Source: Chloroflexota bacterium
GTDB lineage: Bacteria; Chloroflexota; Anaerolineae; UBA4142; SHND01
Direction of reading: 5' to 3'
Assembly: GCA_029778615.1 (NCBI GenBank)
Contig: JAKOPZ010000085.1
Coordinates: 62,001 to 126,000 of the forward strand
DNA length: 64,000 nt
This document shows positions 12,044 through 43,339 of this stretch, one piece after another. A program made the position numbers and the translations under genes. The notes below the pieces were generated by a model. It was not told the DNA's origin and searched no databases. It worked only from the letters and a program-made list of their open reading frames with translations. Each line of letters opens with the position of its first letter. The first letter of the stretch is position 1.

Positions 12044-12946
12044 ATGCACATCGGTTTCCTCACCAATTGTTTACATCATCGCGCGCTGCCCGAAATTATC
12101 GAATGGGCAGGCGCGCACGGTTTTGCTTCGCTCGAACTCGCGTGTTGGCCCCGCGAAGCAAGTGCCGTTGACCCATCGCTCGATGTCGTGAATTTTTCAC
12201 AAGGCGATGCGGAAGAATTGAACGCGCTCGCGCAAAAACATCACATCACGTTCACCTGCTTGACGTATTGCCCGAATACGCTCGCGCACAATCCGGCGGA
12301 ACGCGACGCCAACCTCCAACATCTGTATCGCGTGCTCGACGCAGCGCATTTACTCGGCGTCAACACGATTTCCACCTTTGTCGGACGCGACGAAACAAAA
12401 ACGCAGCGCGAAACTTTGGACGCGATGGCGCAAGTGTTCCCGCCGCTGCTCGATTACGCGGCAGCGCGCAACATTCGCATCGCGATAGAAAATTGTCCGA
12501 TGCCCGGTTGGCAGTTCGAAGGGCTCGCGGGAAACGTCGCGTATGCGCCGGTGATTTGGGATGAAATGTTTGCGCGTCTGCCGCACGAAAATTTTGGATT
12601 GAATCTTGACCCGTCGCATCTCGTGTGGCTCGGCGTCAACTATTACGACATGGTGCCGCGATACGCGTCGCGCATTTTCCACACGCACGCCAAAGACACG
12701 GAAATTTACGCTGACCAACGCGCGTACCACTCGATTCTCAATTCCGGTTGGGATACGTGGTGGACATATCGTTTGCCCGGCAAAGGCGAAATTGATTGGA
12801 AGCGATGGGCAAACGTGTTGCGCGCGAACGGTTACGATGGCGCCTTGTCCATCGAACACGAAGACCCCGATTACGAACACACGGAAGAGTTGGTCAAAGA
12901 AGGTTTGCTGCTCGGCAAGAAAAATCTAATGGAGGCAATCGCGTAG
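12044..12946 (+). CDS. TIM-barrel sugar phosphate isomerase/epimerase family protein
   Basis: With the start at the ATG of MHIGFLTN this has 300 residues; an in-frame ATG 21 bp upstream lies beside the repeat tract and is less likely. It is a xylose-isomerase-like (AP endonuclease 2 fold) barrel: EWAGAHGFASLELACWP, NTISTFVGRD, IAIENCPM (metal-ligand Glu), LNLDPSHLVW (Asp/His ligands), RIFHTHAKD and the last-strand Glu in ALSIEHEDPD. Such enzymes epimerise or isomerise sugars or inositols with a divalent metal. Its stop codon lies in the palindrome at 12943-12997, and a Gfo/Idh/MocA dehydrogenase follows, a common pairing in sugar and inositol catabolism. Confidence 0.88.
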   Translation: MHIGFLTNCLHHRALPEIIEWAGAHGFASLELACWPREASAVDPSLDVVNFSQGDAEELNALAQKHHITFTCLTYCPNTLAHNPAERDANLQHLYRVLDAAHLLGVNTISTFVGRDETKTQRETLDAMAQVFPPLLDYAAARNIRIAIENCPMPGWQFEGLAGNVAYAPVIWDEMFARLPHENFGLNLDPSHLVWLGVNYYDMVPRYASRIFHTHAKDTEIYADQRAYHSILNSGWDTWWTYRLPGKGEIDWKRWANVLRANGYDGALSIEHEDPDYEHTEELVKEGLLLGKKNLMEAIA

Positions 12947-12997
12947 GGGCAAAGCATTGACACGCGCCGACGACGGCGCACAATGCTTTGCCCCTAC
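12943..12997. repeat. 55-bp nested palindrome between isomerase and dehydrogenase genes
   Basis: Perfect 16-bp arms GTAGGGGCAAAGCATT (12943-12958) and AATGCTTTGCCCCTAC (12982-12997) enclose a second perfect stem GCGCCG/CGGCGC. Its first bases provide the TAG stop of the upstream gene. It has the form of a non-autonomous palindromic (REP/MITE-like) element, but could also act as an RNA hairpin inside the operon. Confidence 0.8.
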
Positions 12998-26246: not shown

Positions 26247-26283
26247 TATTGCACCACCGCACTATTGCACTATCGCACCAATC
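26247..26283. repeat. Word-repeat tract (GCACTATC) at pbpC 3' end
   Basis: The words ATTGCACC, CCGCACT, ATTGCACT and ATCGCACC span the end of pbpC and supply its last residues (GAIVQ) and stop. Confidence 0.6.
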
Positions 26284-28823
26284 ACGCGAAACCGCACCAC
26301 ATCACTCTCCACACGCGTTCCATCCATCGTTACTGCAATCGCTTGCGCCGTGTGTTCGCCCACTTGCAATTTCCACAGCACACGATACGGCACGCTTGTA
26401 AATTGTCCAATCGCGTTTCCGTCAATGAGCAACGTCACATTAGACAAACGTAATGCTTGATTCAACCGCGCGCTCACTTCAATCTTTTGCAAATCGGCAG
26501 GCAGCTGCGGACTAATTTCAAAAATCGAATTGTTTGCAGGCGAGACAATTTCCAACGCCTGACGTTTCACGTTTGACGTCTCACTCTTTGCCGTCTGTTG
26601 TCTGTCATCTGTGGTCTGCGCTCTGCCGAAACAATCCATCTCCGGCGCGAGCGTCAACTCTTTTTTCTTTGCCCAATCCATCGCGTCGGGTGGATACACG
26701 CGGAACACGCGCTCGATGCGCGGACCGCGACAGCCGTCCGCCCACAACAAATTGGTCGCCGCGTCCAATTCAAATTTTTGATACGCGTCGTCCGTACGTT
26801 TCGGTTCCGTGCCCTTGATAAAAACTTCGCGCCGCACGCGCGGACAATTTTCCGTTGGCAACAAGCCGGACGCGTCGCAAATTTCCATTTCCACAATGCC
26901 ATCGGGACGCGCAAAATTTTTTTCAGGAACACCGCGCAGTGCCGCTTCCATAAAATCATGCCAAATCGGACCCGCGCCCGTGATGCCGCTCACGCGATAC
27001 ATTGGCGCATTGTCCGCGTTGCCTGCCCAAACACCAACCGCCAAATCGGGTGTATAGCCCATTGTCCAATTGTCGCGAAAATCCGTCGTCGTTCCCGTTT
27101 TCGCCGCTGCCGGACGCGACAAATTCAAAACGCTGTCTTCGCCAAACGCGGGAATGCGCGCGCTGTCGTCCGAGAGAATAGAAGTGATGAGATAAGCGAC
27201 TTGGGGAGAAACAGATTGCGAATCTCCAGTCTCCAGTCTCCAATCCAATGAGATTGGAGATTGGAGACTGGAGACTGACAATATCGCGCGCGGCTCCACC
27301 CGCTTGCCCTCATTCGCAAACGCGGCGTACGCGGCAGTGAGTTCCAATAATTTTACTTCCCCCCCCCCCAACGTCAGCGCGAGACCAAAGCGGTCGGAAT
27401 CGTCGAATGTTGTAATGCCCAACGCTTTCGCTGTGGCAATCATCGCGTCGAGCCCCACGTGGTCGAGCACTTTGACCGCAATCAAATTGTCCGATGTCGC
27501 CAACGCTGCGCGCAGCGATATGGGTCCATGCCATTGGCGGTCAAAATTTTGCGGCGCGTAGGGTTCATTCTCTTTGGTTTGAAATGTTGTGGGAACGTCG
27601 GTCAACACCGTCGCCGCCGTGTAGAGACGTTCCGGCGGAACGTCTCGTTGTCCAAACGCCGTTGCGTACGTAATCGGTTTAATCGAAGAACCCGGTTGGC
27701 GCAAAGACAACGCCACATTCACCGCGCCGTCAATGCTTTCATCAAAATAGTCCGCGCTGCCCACCATCGCGAGAATTTCGCCCGTTGCAGGTTCAATGGC
27801 GACGAGCGCGGCGTCGTTCAAATTGTAATCGGGCGCGTTTTCGTTGCGCGTGCGATTTTTCAATTCTGCAATGTGCCGCTTGACAATTTCTTCCGCGCGC
27901 TGCTGCAAATTCAAATCGAGCGTCGTCGTCACGCGCAGTCCGCCCGCGTTCACCGCCTCCGCGCCGTACTGCTGCTCCAACAAATTTCGCACATACGCGA
28001 CAAAGTGCGGTGCGCGAATCAATTCGCGTTTGTCCGTCGCTTTGAAATGCAGTTCTTCATTTGCTGCCAGTTGCGCCTCGCTTGCGCTTATCAAGCCGTG
28101 CTTGAGCATCAAGTCCAAAACAATTTTTTGTCGCGCGCGCGCGGCATCGGGATTCACGTACGGGTCATACGCGTACGGCGATTGAATCATGCCCGCGAGC
28201 AGCGCGCTTTCCGCCAAATCCAAATCGCGCGCGGGTTTGCCAAAATAGGTGCGCGCCGCCGCTTCCGCCCCATACGCCAAATTTCCAAAATACACTTCGT
28301 TCAAATACATTTCCAAAATTTGGTCTTTGGAATAATTTTGTGAAATGCGTAACGCCAGCATCATCTCGCGCGCTTTGCGTGTGAGCGTGCGCGACTCTTG
28401 TTCCTCGCGCGATAACAGTACCAGCCGCGCCAATTGCTGTGTAATCGTGCTGCCGCCCGAAACAATTTGACCTTGCTGCGCGAATTGAAGCATTGCGCGC
28501 GCGACGCCAATCGCGTCCACGCCGGGATGTTCATAATAATTCGCATCCTCGACGGCGATGACGGCATTTTTGAAATGCGGCGCCAGTTCGCTCAGCGCAA
28601 CGCGCGTGCGTCGTCCCGCGCGCGGGTCAAGAATTTCGTACAACAGTTTTCCATTGCGGTCCAAAATTTTTGTCGTGTCGGGAGACGTGCGCGTGAGCAG
28701 CGCGTCGGGCGCGGGCAAATCGCCAAACAAAAAAATCGCCAGCGCGACGATGCCGATTCCCATCAGCGCGAGGGGAATCAAAAACCAACGGCGGCGGATT
28801 TTACGATGCGAAATGTTTGCCAT
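26262..28823 (-). CDS. pbpC: Class A penicillin-binding protein, PBP1C-type
   Basis: The protein has 853 residues with an N-terminal membrane anchor (about 13-34). The GT51 transglycosylase domain has E92 in VEDANYYEHPGV and GGSTITQQLAR. The transpeptidase domain carries S379xxK (GSSIKP), S444DN and K575TG. After about residue 770 a small Ig-like C-terminal domain (LEIVSPANNSIFEI) resembles the BiPBP_C domain of PbpC. It polymerises and cross-links peptidoglycan. PbpC genes are typically paired with alpha-2-macroglobulin genes; here five genes separate them. Three short stretches look like repeat-derived insertions: about 392-401 (palindrome), 517-537 (inverted words) and just before the C-terminal domain (words), all in frame and outside catalytic motifs. 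Confidence 0.92.
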   Translation of the reverse strand: MANISHRKIRRRWFLIPLALMGIGIVALAIFLFGDLPAPDALLTRTSPDTTKILDRNGKLLYEILDPRAGRRTRVALSELAPHFKNAVIAVEDANYYEHPGVDAIGVARAMLQFAQQGQIVSGGSTITQQLARLVLLSREEQESRTLTRKAREMMLALRISQNYSKDQILEMYLNEVYFGNLAYGAEAAARTYFGKPARDLDLAESALLAGMIQSPYAYDPYVNPDAARARQKIVLDLMLKHGLISASEAQLAANEELHFKATDKRELIRAPHFVAYVRNLLEQQYGAEAVNAGGLRVTTTLDLNLQQRAEEIVKRHIAELKNRTRNENAPDYNLNDAALVAIEPATGEILAMVGSADYFDESIDGAVNVALSLRQPGSSIKPITYATAFGQRDVPPERLYTAATVLTDVPTTFQTKENEPYAPQNFDRQWHGPISLRAALATSDNLIAVKVLDHVGLDAMIATAKALGITTFDDSDRFGLALTLGGGEVKLLELTAAYAAFANEGKRVEPRAILSVSSLQSPISLDWRLETGDSQSVSPQVAYLITSILSDDSARIPAFGEDSVLNLSRPAAAKTGTTTDFRDNWTMGYTPDLAVGVWAGNADNAPMYRVSGITGAGPIWHDFMEAALRGVPEKNFARPDGIVEMEICDASGLLPTENCPRVRREVFIKGTEPKRTDDAYQKFELDAATNLLWADGCRGPRIERVFRVYPPDAMDWAKKKELTLAPEMDCFGRAQTTDDRQQTAKSETSNVKRQALEIVSPANNSIFEISPQLPADLQKIEVSARLNQALRLSNVTLLIDGNAIGQFTSVPYRVLWKLQVGEHTAQAIAVTMDGTRVESDVVRFRVIGAIVQ
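26558..26627. repeat. In-frame word-repeat tract within pbpC (C-terminal linker)
   Basis: The words GTCTGTT, GTCTGTC, ATCTGTG, GTCTGCG, preceded by CGTTTCA/CGTTTGA words, encode a low-complexity linker (TTDDRQQTAKSETSN) between the transpeptidase and the Ig-like domain. Confidence 0.65.
27227..27277. repeat. In-frame inverted word repeat inside pbpC
   Basis: Perfect 19-bp arms CAGTCTCCAGTCTCCAATC (27227-27245) and the complement (27259-27277), built from CTCCAGT/CTCCAAT heptamers, encode residues about 517-537 in a loop of the transpeptidase domain. The reading frame stays open. Confidence 0.85.
27621..27649. repeat. Palindromic element, AGACGTT family, copy 3 (inside pbpC)
   Basis: The 11-bp arms GAGACGTTCCG (27624-27634) and CGGAACGTCTC (27636-27646) flank one base. 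On the coding strand it is read as RDVPPERLY, between the SxxK helix and a conserved TVLTDVPTTF segment. Confidence 0.8.
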
Positions 28824-28954
28824 GTACGCACAAAAGGAGCGCGGTGTTCAATCTGAACACAGCACTCTCCTCCAAAATTAGGACGCAGAACGATTCAAAA
28901 TAGTTCCGACAGACGTGACAAGTCTTGAGAGACCTGTCACGTCTCCAACCAGAG

Positions 28955-39442: not shown

Positions 39443-40506
39443 TAGTTCTCACCCAACGCCAACTCCAGCTGCCACGTTCCCTCCTCTTGGACCAAATTAT
39501 GCACGCCCACACCGAGCAAACGCACTGCACGCGTCGAATCCCAATGCTGTTGCAATAATTCGCGCGCGTGTTTGCGAATGGTCGCTTCGTCCGCCATCGG
39601 AACGCGTAAAGTGACTTGACGCGTAATCGTCGTGAAATCTTCGTACCGCAATTTCAAAACAATCGTCCGCGCCTTCAGCTTTTCCTCTGCCAACTCGCGC
39701 GCCACACGCGCGCTCATCTCGTCGAGATATTTTTCCAAAACATCGCGCGCGCGAATATCACGCTCGAAAGTATTTTCTTGGCTGATACTTTTCGTCGCGC
39801 GATCGGTGACAATCGGCGAATCGTCCACCCCGCGCGCCGCGTCTGCCAAATAGGCGCCGTGTTTCCCAAATTCTGCGCGCAATTCGTCCGCGTTCACGCG
39901 CGCCAAATCGCCAATCGTCTCCACATTCCATTTCGTTTTCAATTTCGCCCGCGTTACCTGTCCCGCCCCGGGAATTTTCCTGACGGGAAGCGGCGCGAGA
40001 AATTTTTCCTCATCGCCATTGGCAATCACGATAAAGCCGCGCGGTTTCACTGTATTGCACGCAATTTTGGAAACGAGTTTATTCGACGCGACGGCAATCG
40101 TACAAGACAATCGCAATTCGTCGTGAATCCGTCGTTGAATTTCGCGCGCCACTTCCACTCCATCGCGCTCGGCTTTAATTTCCAAATACGCTTCGTCAAT
40201 CGAAACTTGCTCGACCAACGGAGACATTTCGCGCAACAAATTCATCACGCGCGCGGAATGTTCGGAATAAATTTTGTGGCGCACGGGTACGATGATGGCT
40301 TGCGGACACAACCGTTTCGCCTCGCGCAAACCCATCGCACTGTGAACGCCAAACTTGCGCGCCTCGTACGAACACGTCGCCACCACGCCGCGCGTATTTA
40401 TATCTCCCATCGCGACAATGAGCGGTTTGTCGCGCAGCGCGGGATTCAGCAGCATTTCGACGGTCGCATAAAACGCGTCGAGGTCGAGGTGTAGAATTTT
40501 GCCCAA
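39442..40506 (-). CDS. dinB: DNA polymerase IV (Y-family)
   Basis: The protein has 354 residues, normal for DinB. Palm-domain carboxylates are at D8 (LHLDLDAFYATVE) and D104/E105 (VSIDEAYLEI). The YEARKFGVHSAMGLREAKRLCP fingers segment, helix-hairpin-helix (IPGAGQVTRAKLKTKW) and little-finger region (FTTITRQVTLR) are in order. It performs error-prone bypass of DNA lesions. The C-terminal WQLELAL may be the sliding-clamp-binding peptide. No LexA-type box could be assigned in the upstream gap. Confidence 0.96.
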   Translation of the reverse strand: MGKILHLDLDAFYATVEMLLNPALRDKPLIVAMGDINTRGVVATCSYEARKFGVHSAMGLREAKRLCPQAIIVPVRHKIYSEHSARVMNLLREMSPLVEQVSIDEAYLEIKAERDGVEVAREIQRRIHDELRLSCTIAVASNKLVSKIACNTVKPRGFIVIANGDEEKFLAPLPVRKIPGAGQVTRAKLKTKWNVETIGDLARVNADELRAEFGKHGAYLADAARGVDDSPIVTDRATKSISQENTFERDIRARDVLEKYLDEMSARVARELAEEKLKARTIVLKLRYEDFTTITRQVTLRVPMADEATIRKHARELLQQHWDSTRAVRLLGVGVHNLVQEEGTWQLELALGEN

Positions 40507-40584
40507 AAGGATTTTCCCGCCGATCTTTGTTATCCAACGCGTAACGACGAATCTACCCGAATCATGTCATTCCGAACGGAGTGA

Positions 40585-40622
40585 GGAATCTCATTAGCGT
40601 TATTCGCGTAATTCGTGGATTG
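40585..40622. repeat. Word-repeat tract (TTATTCGCG/TAATTCGTGG)
   Basis: ATTAGCG, TTATTCGCG, TAATTCGTGG words lie in the divergent gap between dinB and the STAND pseudogene. Just before it, TCATTCCGAACGGAGTGAGG has the form of another common bacterial intergenic repeat. Confidence 0.55.
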
Positions 40623-40717
40623 AAATTGGATAAACGACAACGAACGATATTTATTATAGCCCAAATGCCCTTAGCAACTAGGCAAAATTGTATCGCTCCG
40701 CGCGCCTGATTTTCCGA

Positions 40718-40723
40718 TATAAT
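40718..40723 (+). promoter_or_regulatory. -10 box (TATAAT) before the STAND gene
   Basis: TATAAT ends 10 bp before the ATG at 40734; the expected transcript would have almost no leader. No Shine-Dalgarno sequence is seen. Confidence 0.55.
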
Positions 40724-40733
40724 ACCTGTCATC

Positions 40734-42503
40734 ATGTCGGATTCTAATCCATCTTCCAATACTCCATCTTCATCCAATTCTGTCGGTGGAATCAACGTCA
40801 GCGGCGGCAATTTCAACGTCGGCGGCGATGTTGTCGGCGGCGACAAATACGTTATCGCGGCGGAACTCGCCTATGACGTGCGCGGCTGCGAAAATCCGTA
40901 TCTCGGTCTCGCCGCGTTCACCTACAACGAACGCGCCGAATACGCGGGACGCGAAAAAGTAATTGCGGAAACGTTTGCGAAAATCACCGCGCCAGCATCA
41001 CCCGTCGCGCTCTTGTTCGTCACAGGCGCGAGCGGGAGTGGTAAATCGTCGTTCGCTCAAGCGGGTCTGCTCCCCGCGCTCGAAACATTTTACGAAAATT
41101 TCGCTGTCAAGCGCGCGGTCATGCGTCCCGCGGGGGACCCGCTCGCCGCGTTGAATGATGCGATGTGGCGCCAGTTACAGCTCAAGACCTTCGAGGTTTC
41201 GGCGAACTCGTTCGCAAAAAAACCTCGAAGGTCTCTTCCAAGACAATCCCCCCAATCAAATCAACCTCCTCATCCTCGACCAATTCGAAGAATTTTTTAC
41301 GCAATCGCCGCAAGCCGCGCGCGAACAATTTTTCGCGTGGCTGGTAAATCTGCCGCCATTCGCCAAAACGCGCACGCACATCATTGCGACCATGCGCGCG
41401 GACTATTTGCCCGAACTGTTCAATCATTCCGCGCTATATGACATTGCCAAACGCGGGGTGGACTTGCGCGCGATGAACGCGACAGAATTGAACGCGGCGA
41501 TTCAACAACCACTGCGCGCGTCACCTTACGCAAAAGAAAAACGTTTTGACCCCGCGCTCGTGGACAAACTCGCGGAGGATGCCGCACAAGACGCCGCGTA
41601 TCTACCGCTGCTCCAAGTGACGCTCCAAGAATTGTGGCGCAAAGGTTTTCTCAAACTTGAAGCATATACAAATCTCACCGACGCCATCGAACAGCGCGCG
41701 GACCAGGTGTTGGAGTTCAGCGATTTTGACGACGCGGTGCCCGACGAAAAACGTGAACCTGCACAACAGACCGCGCGGCTGAATCTCTTGCTCGACCTCG
41801 TGGACGTTTCCGCCGACGATGACATTCACCGAGATGTGCGAAAGCAGCTCGCGAAGACGGAACTGACGCGCGGCGAAATCACGCGCACGCGTTGGGTGGA
41901 CGAACTCGCCGCCGCGCGTTTGTTGCGCATCCAGAATCAAGACCGCGCGCCGAGGCATTGGAACAAGCCAAGCGCGAAGCAGATATGCGCGCACAGGAAC
42001 AGCTGAATGCAAATGCGCGCTTACGTCAACGCAATCTGTTTCTCGCGGGTGCGTTCGTCCTGGCATTGGTTGCGGTAGGCGCGGCAGTTTTCTTTCTTAC
42101 ACAATCGAACGAGCAACGGGACGCGGCGAATCAGGCAAACGCAGCATCACAAGCCGCGAACGCAACTGCCCAAGCGGAAGCAAAACGCGCAGATGATCAA
42201 GCAAAAATTAGCGATTCACGAGCCCTCGCCGCACAGTCCATTTCCAAGCACGATGAAGACTTGCCGCTCTCATATTTGTTGGGCATCGCGGCGTTCAAAA
42301 AGAGCGATACAGCAGAAGCGCGCACTAACTTGTTCAATCTCCGCTACGAAGACTCGCACCCTAGAACCTTTTTGCGGGCGGAATATGCACAATATATCAA
42401 GCGCGATGCGGCGGCGTACGATAACGAGTATGCCAAAAATCCGACGTGTTCCGATTTGCCCATCGAGCCGTTAGTCACGCCGACGCCCAGTCCGACGCCG
42501 TGA
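40734..42503 (+). pseudogene. STAND (nSTAND1-like) NTPase, broken by two frame changes
   Basis: Three open segments make one protein. Segment 1 (40734 to about 41190) has a Gly-rich start (NVGGDVVGGDKY), ENPYLGLAAFTYNERAEYAGRE and Walker A TGASGSGKSSF. Segment 2 (about 41220-41930, other frame) has Walker B LLILDQFEEFF, then MRADYLPELF and PLLQVTLQELW typical of nSTAND1. Segment 3 (about 41940-42503, frame of segment 1) has a coiled region, one membrane helix (LFLAGAFVLALVAVGAAVFF) and a short remnant where WD40 repeats normally begin. The first shift coincides with the palindrome at 41185-41234; the second probably reflects a deletion, since the normal spacing is lost. STAND proteins of this kind act in signalling, cell death or defence. 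Unless ribosomal shifting restores it, the gene is dead. Confidence 0.85.
41185..41234. repeat. 50-bp nested palindrome at the STAND frameshift
   Basis: Perfect 15-bp arms AGACCTTCGAGGTTT (41185-41199) and AAACCTCGAAGGTCT (41220-41234) enclose an inner stem GCGAAC/GTTCGC. Removing 49, 52 or 55 bp would rejoin the two frames, which fits a 50-bp element plus a 2-bp duplication. Confidence 0.85.
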
Positions 42504-42612
42504 AGGGGAAGATTGCCAGTGGATTATGCGTTGACATACAACGCGAGCGGATAAGCGGATGGGGGTGCGCGCTATCTGTTCATTCGCTAGTCGCGTCCCC
42601 TGCATCGTGGTG

Positions 42613-42618
42613 TATAAT
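42613..42618 (+). promoter_or_regulatory. -10 box (TATAAT) before the MazEF-type pair
   Basis: TATAAT in the context GTGTATAATC lies 20 bp before the ATG at 42639, with AAGGAGG between. No clear -35. Confidence 0.55.
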
Positions 42619-42638
42619 CGAACGGCAAGGAGGCGTAA

Positions 42639-42911
42639 ATGAGTGCTGAAGCGAATGTCGTCGTTCAAACGATTGTTTCCGAACTTGCCGAGTTGCCTGA
42701 CGAAAAAATCGTCGAGGTCTTGGACTTTGTTCGCTTTTTGCGTGTGCGGTATCGCATCAATGCAAAACGATATGCCCCGCGAACGGTGAATGAAGAACAA
42801 TGGGCGCGGCTCTATGCTGAAAGTGCGGAAGAAGATGTACAACTGGCAGAAGCAGGCATTGCCGACTATGACGCGCGCTTGAAGCAAGAGGACGCCGATG
42901 CAAAAGGGTGA
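42639..42911 (+). CDS. Probable antitoxin of MazEF-type pair (DUF2281-like)
   Basis: A 90-residue protein with a strong AAGGAGG sequence 6 nt before the ATG. It has VQTIVSELAELPDEKIVEVLDFVRFLRVRY, a pattern of small antitoxins (DUF2281-like), then a charged, partly disordered half (about 45-90) rich in Glu/Asp that would wrap the toxin. It overlaps mazF by 14 bp. The N-terminus lacks an obvious AbrB-type DNA-binding domain of classical MazE, so autoregulation is uncertain. Confidence 0.78.
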   Translation: MSAEANVVVQTIVSELAELPDEKIVEVLDFVRFLRVRYRINAKRYAPRTVNEEQWARLYAESAEEDVQLAEAGIADYDARLKQEDADAKG

Positions 42912-43233
42912 AATTTATTTGGCGAATTTGAATCCCGTTGTGGGTTCAGAACAAGCAGGACTGCGCCCCGTTGTCATTGTTCAAAATTCTTTATTGAATC
43001 GAGTTGCCCGAACCGTCGTAGTCATTCCTTTTACGACCAACTTGAAACGGGCGGAATTGCCAAGTGGACTGCTTGTTACTGCCGGTGCAGGCGGATTAAA
43101 ACAAGACTCGGTTGCATTGTGTAATCAGATTCGTGTCTTGGACAAATCGCGTTTGACAAATCATCTCGGAAAACTGGATGACGAATGGATGGAAAAGATT
43201 CAAGATACGTTGGCATTTGTTCTGGATATGTAG
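42898..43233 (+). CDS. mazF: MazF/PemK-family endoribonuclease toxin
   Basis: The protein has 111 residues. It begins [30 protein letters not shown], the hallmark MazF opening (G-E-I..A.L.P..G.E..G.RP.VIV.N), with the conserved Arg23 used in catalysis, then VVVIPFTTN and the C-terminal [20 protein letters not shown]. MazF toxins cut mRNA or tRNA at short sequences. The gene is intact and translationally overlapped with the upstream antitoxin. A terminator follows. Confidence 0.93.
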   Translation: [111 protein letters not shown]

Positions 43234-43251
43234 TCATATCGCACAAAATCA

Positions 43252-43288
43252 AACAGCGAAGCAACTCGAGTGCTCCGCTGTTTTTTTT
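43252..43288 (+). terminator. Intrinsic terminator after mazF
   Basis: The stem ACAGCG-AGCA/TGCT-CGCTGT around ACTCGAG is followed by eight T, 20 bp after the mazF stop. Confidence 0.9.
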
Positions 43289-43339
43289 GCCCTTGTCGGT
43301 TGTTTGGAATGCGAGAGACTTACACGGTTATTGTTCGCT

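Follow-up and report, generated by a model that had tools for sequence, protein, structure and literature searches.

We here ask whether a palindrome that sits exactly where a STAND NTPase gene changes its reading frame is what broke that gene. The window, i.e., the whole stretch of 64,000 nucleotides analysed, comes from the genome of a Chloroflexota bacterium (6.0 Mb in 372 contigs, with the assembly 95% complete) and contains at 41185-41234 a 50-base palindrome whose two 15-bp arms pair perfectly around a 20-nt loop that itself holds an inner stem. Both the arms and the inner stem are as originally predicted, and the fold is very stable (z of -6.4 as RNA and -6.9 as DNA), with no shuffled sequence reaching the same stability. 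Palindromes with perfectly matching arms of 13 bp or more and loops of up to 25 nt number 44 in 435 kb of the genome and zero in sequence simulated with its dinucleotide content, and the palindrome at 41185-41234 is far beyond chance. When the region 40500-43300 was searched against Rfam, no match was found.

The change of frame at the palindrome, which had also been predicted, was borne out. The two parts of the nSTAND1 domain lie in two frames and match PF20703 with 71 and 123 bits (gathering score, 27.1), and the codon-usage score is +14 on one side of the palindrome and +18 on the other, again in different frames; this score and the gene predictions come from a simple codon-usage script of our own and not from a standard tool. 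At least three lesions mark the gene as a remnant (Table 1). Indeed, the two lesions other than that at the palindrome are large and not of the homopolymer type, so that the gene would be a remnant anyway. PADLOC gave no match for the two STAND fragments of the window. Directly 3' of the remnant, a small gene with a sub-threshold match to DUF2281 is followed by a gene for a PemK/MazF-like toxin (42639-43233).

Table 1. Coordinates, in the window, of the STAND gene remnant, its lesions and the palindrome
Feature	Position	Strand	Remark
nSTAND1 N part with Walker A (GASGSGKSS)	40734..41184	+	PF20703 positions 1-88
Left REP-like unit AGACCTTCGAGGTTT	41185..41199	+	
Loop	41200..41219	+	inner 5-bp stem formed by 41202-41206 and 41211-41215
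nSTAND1 C part with Walker B (LLILDQFEE), shifted frame	41215..41942	+	PF20703 positions 115-329
A7 run spanning the loop/arm boundary	41216..41222	+	candidate site of a 1-nt change or assembly error
Right unit AAACCTCGAAGGTCT	41220..41234	+	100% complementary to the left arm
C6 run	41248..41253	+	second candidate site of a 1-nt change
Second lesion	41937..41960	+	about 74 residues (413-486 of the G001 protein) absent, and frame change
Later remnant and C-terminal end of the STAND gene	41961..42503	+	last stretch again matches the end of the G001 protein
Third lesion	42333..42362	+	WD40 repeat region absent (about residues 606-1237 of the G001 protein)

Orthologues from the same genus were available in the two genomes G001 (two parts 57 and 68% identical; intact open frame of 1318 aa) and G005 (51 and 66%; open frame of 1335 aa). 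At the corresponding place, G001 has a 51-bp nested palindrome, namely AGACCTGTGAGGTTT, 21 nt and AAACCTCACAGGTCT, which is in frame and read as ETCEVSAMEFIAKTSQV; the left arm in the window is read as KTFEVSA, in a phase identical to that of the G001 element. Measured from the codons for RQL to those for QINL, the linker is 79 nt long in the window and 78 nt in G001, both with the element, and 93 nt in G005 without it. A decayed palindrome was suspected in the G005 linker, and its fold showed nothing beyond chance (DNA fold z of -0.25). When the 50 bp are taken out of the window linker, 29 nt are left, compared with roughly 63-93 nt in the relatives measured. What is observed between the window and G001 is thus a net difference of +1 nt, i.e., one base gained or two lost, for which the A7 and C6 runs are candidate sites. 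The element is also placed slightly differently in the two genomes, by 3 nt at the left flank and about 5 at the right, and given these offsets, two independent insertions are possible.

It had been proposed that removal of 49, 52 or 55 bp would restore the frame, which is right modulo 3; removing 1 bp or adding 2 works equally well, however, and the coincidence of element and frameshift therefore does not identify the cause. The tempting inference that a palindrome coinciding with a frameshift must have caused it is corrected accordingly: such a coincidence is no evidence of the palindrome as the cause. Furthermore, the claim that an insertion killed the gene is not supported, given that G001 carries the 51-bp counterpart within an intact open frame, that the linker without the element would be far shorter than those of the relatives, and that the gene has two further large lesions. 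G001 is in substance the case named beforehand as refuting that claim, a relative with the corresponding element in frame and in the same phase. Since this sister species has an element of the same kind in frame at the equivalent position, the arrival of the element probably did not break the gene, and the frame break is probably not an effect of that arrival.

The palindrome at the STAND site is one of many. We searched for pairs of ACCTnnnAGGT units, the second no more than 30 nt past the first, with the reversed pattern as the control, and found 21 matches in the window's own genome (control, 0), 50 in G001 and 125 in G009; across ten related genomes the counts ranged from 0 (G029) to 125 (G009), with the reversed pattern matched only once, in G046. 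Among the distinct pairs in the own genome and G001, 62 of 65 had complementary triplets, compared with the fraction of 0.21 that is expected when the triplets are drawn independently. The three other pairs (L153 among them) are probably decayed or chance matches and were left out. The dominant triplets were CAC/GTG in G001 (33 of 44 pairs) and CGA/TCG in the own genome (10 of 21). The elements are mostly preceded by CAAR and followed by YTTG-like sequence, and are mostly intergenic, with 8 of the 62 complementary pairs located within predicted genes. G001 has a pair of identical 51-bp copies whose flanks are unrelated, and with these the copy in its STAND gene agrees at all but three of the 51 positions. 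Palindromes of this kind were predicted to be mobile; they are dispersed, and the identical copies in unrelated surroundings, together with the recurrence of the arm among the 21 matches in the own genome, indeed point that way; we thus regard them as a family of small, probably mobile hairpins across these Chloroflexota genomes.

As to what might mobilise the family, a RAYT-like gene of G001 (L188:4035-4688) is flanked by an element on either side and contains a third. Including this gene, 12 homologues with at least 51% identity were found in 60 relatives, and in all 12 the open frame is bordered by an element on at least one side. In 10 of the 12, a further element lies in frame within the gene, at a similar position past the HUH motif, with dialects differing by genome, and no inner element was found in the RAYT genes L251 and L254; for two of the homologues, the inner copy (L252) and the place of the copy in the gene (L253) were read from the homologue and element lists. 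The alignment of these proteins shows the HUH motif HFHLL and YIHxNP with the catalytic Tyr of the Y1 family. They match NCBIfam NF047646 (REP_Tyr_transpos) with E values of 6e-13 to 3e-14, at 49-53 bits and thus below the 80-bit cut-off, and one of them matches TnpArep (PDB 4er8) with an E value of 4e-6. Upstream of one RAYT gene in G004, we noticed an alternating array of elements (L252:2136-2540), several of them with inner stems of the GACGACATCGTC type.

Predictions on dialects were drawn from the RAYT loci prior to the counting. The GTC dialect, which was predicted to be commonest in G008 and G009, where the RAYT carries GTC, has 23 and 34 copies there and at most 6 elsewhere. The TCG dialect was predicted to be highest in G018, where the RAYT carries TCG, and has 22 copies there, followed by 14 in G005; it also has 10-14 copies in genomes in which no TCG RAYT was seen. 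The association of RAYT dialect with genome-wide abundance is hence sharp for GTC and weak for TCG. In the window's own genome, no close homologue of the L188-type RAYT was found, and the gene may be lost or may be missing from the 95% complete assembly. The PF01797 loci fetched from the own genome have no element pairs beside them; element pairs adjoin only the divergent RAYT found from L188 and no fetched PF01797 locus. Taken together, the two are associated in the relatives, and RAYT probably mobilises the element, an activity that we read from sequence.

We accordingly favour, with a probability of about two in three, the following course of events. The palindrome would be one copy of a REPIN-like element, in which two inverted REP-like 15-mers could each form a mini-hairpin and, by virtue of complementary middle triplets, could also fold as a pair into one long hairpin. 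The element probably spread via RAYT, an HUH/Y1 transposase that would work on the single-stranded hairpin. The copy in the nSTAND1 gene is most likely older than the break and would have been carried in frame at first; a net 1-nt change within the element or next to it, for example in the A7 or C6 run, would have destroyed the frame afterwards, while the gene also lost other parts. This order in the STAND gene, the element first and the break later, is what we infer, as is any function of the hairpin. Within the same reading, the 1-nt change may alternatively be an error of the assembly.

If the 1-nt difference is taken wholly as an assembly or sequencing error of this metagenome-assembled genome, the element is real and the break at that place is not. 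Such errors would arise readily where an A7 run borders the loop of a perfect palindrome; the coding signal is intact on both sides, and the break is known from one genome. The other two lesions are nonetheless large and no homopolymer errors, and we consider an error as the whole account rather unlikely.

Whether the palindrome arrived from elsewhere or was formed in place can be asked also at other coding sites. Most copies within coding genes keep the frame: besides that in the G001 STAND gene, five complementary pairs have an open frame and coding signal on both sides, namely one in an NB-ARC/TPR gene of the own genome and, in G001, one in an Eco57I-type methylase gene, one each in two membrane-protein genes with no Pfam match, and one in a RAYT-like gene. 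Another pair flagged as an in-frame case (L161) has an internal stop and was left out of the count. At the methylase site, AGACTTCCGATGTTTCCGGAAACATCGGAAGTCT is found in G004 and AGACCCGAAGGGTTTTCGAAAACCCTTCGGGTCT in G010, nothing is present in G030, and no palindrome is found in G009. At L194, one of the membrane-protein sites, a palindrome of equal length with other arms is found in G004, G002 has a segment of equal length without a significant palindrome, the homologue in the own genome has no palindrome, and the segment in G005 is 21 nt shorter. The net differences in length are multiples of three for the methylase (G001 and G004 compared with G030) and for L194 (G001 compared with G005). 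In these comparisons, a palindrome score of p 0.003 is the floor of 300 shuffles, and the search for empty sites used one concatenated query of four gene pieces. The palindrome of the G004 methylase gene, ACTTCCGATGT, was looked for as a dispersed family and found only at that site in 327 kb of G004, so that no source for that dialect was seen. Also, an NB-ARC paralogue in the own genome (L306, G000:C321, matched at 1064-1826) was noticed to have interrupted palindromic arms, AAACGTGACAG, at the corresponding place, with an inner stem, GGCGAAC..GTTCGCC, that resembles the loop of the window element; its palindrome score has a p of only 0.04.

These orthologous sites can be read in two ways: as one old insertion with the arms rewritten together, or as repeated insertion in tolerant linkers. 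About 20 related genomes have orthologous coding sites at which a hairpin persists with a sequence differing by genome, and insertion and in-place rewriting could therefore be separated by comparison. We would suggest, at somewhat less than an even chance, that there is an Anaerolineae RAYT lineage whose own gene contains, always at one position past the HUH motif, an in-frame copy of the element that its product probably mobilises, and that copies at orthologous coding sites (the STAND linker, methylase and RAYT) often show the local dialect and yet remain palindromic. The hairpin would be kept while both arms are rewritten together, through either conversion in place or renewed insertion at an unchanged position. 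Another proposal is that the palindrome was formed in place by template switching between the arms, outside any mobile family. The linker is about equally long with and without the palindrome, and palindromes with other arms occupy the orthologous sites, both of which are in line with this proposal; it is nonetheless improbable, given that the arm is common to dispersed copies in the own genome and to the RAYT-flanking copies of a relative, and that identical copies are dispersed in G001 with unrelated flanks.

Similarly, there is little likelihood that the hairpins are ordinary intrinsic terminators with a common sequence, the copies in genes being accidental. While intergenic copies in the own genome lie between convergent or same-direction genes, many just past a stop codon, and many copies have A/T-rich ends, 9 of the 43 G001 copies examined sit between divergent genes; moreover, copies are in frame in RAYT, methylase and STAND genes, and the dialects are element-specific and matched to RAYT. 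Very unlikely is the idea from which we started, i.e., that some 50 bp, perhaps together with a short duplication, were recently inserted into an intact gene and broke it by shifting its frame: the frame does change at the element, but the in-frame counterpart at the same place in G001 largely refutes it, and the element-free linker of 29 nt and the two further lesions also speak against it. Expression across the site by transcriptional slippage or programmed frameshifting, in spite of the A7 run and the coding signal kept by both halves, would require a +1 (or -2) shift with no known +1 signal and would still meet a second frame break at about 41942, and can practically be dismissed.

Descriptions of RAYT-linked REPs come mainly from Proteobacteria, and those of palindromic elements in frame mainly from Rickettsia. 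As far as the accounts of REPINs and RAYT/TnpAREP consulted go (PMC3116915; PMC2817692), the elements described here resemble REPINs in that two inverted REP units form a hairpin, are dispersed and have genome-specific sequence types, and in their link, here in relatives, to an IS200-like HUH/Y1 transposase gene flanked by copies. They differ in their 15-nt units, in a length of only about 30-50 bp and in their Anaerolineae host, and, unlike GTAG-type REPs, they have no GTAG/GTGG head beside the hairpin. No description of an in-frame element at a constant place inside a RAYT gene was found in the portions of the REPIN/RAYT literature searched. Being palindromic, dispersed and in frame in unrelated protein-coding genes, they also resemble the Rickettsia palindromic elements (RPEs) as presented in a review (PMC10969869) and in PMC3733652, which reports GTAG and CGTC repeats within genes as well as RAYT-like genes flanked by TIRs and regards RPE-4 and RPE-6 as CGTC repeats. 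RPEs are about 150 bp long or CGTC-tagged, however, whereas the units here are shorter and have no CGTC tag; CGTC repeats, in addition, are given there as having no association with a transposase gene, unlike our elements with their link to RAYT. With inverted repeats that lack GTAG on the borders of a RAYT-like gene, some of them in high copy number, the system can be likened, in arrangement rather than by phylogeny, to the TIRtrons/TIRYTs and to class 3 of the TnpAY1 classification (PMC3733652; PMC6006769).

Other palindromes were noticed in the window. One at 27215-27282, with 31-bp arms at 87% and of the TCTCCAGTCTCC type, lies with an open frame in a linker before SPQVAYL, in a gene on the minus strand (26262-28823) that reads like a penicillin-binding protein. 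Another at 28911-28944, AGACGTGACAAGTCT / AGACCTGTCACGTCT, has the layout of a REPIN-like element with the arm core GTGACAG, and resembles palindromes at L316:9636 in the own genome and at L334:1561 inside a predicted gene of G004. Finally, a palindrome at 12943-12997 that starts with GTAGGGGC resembles those at L321:7390 and L324:15344, and this type is possibly a GTAG-tagged REP family in the same genome.
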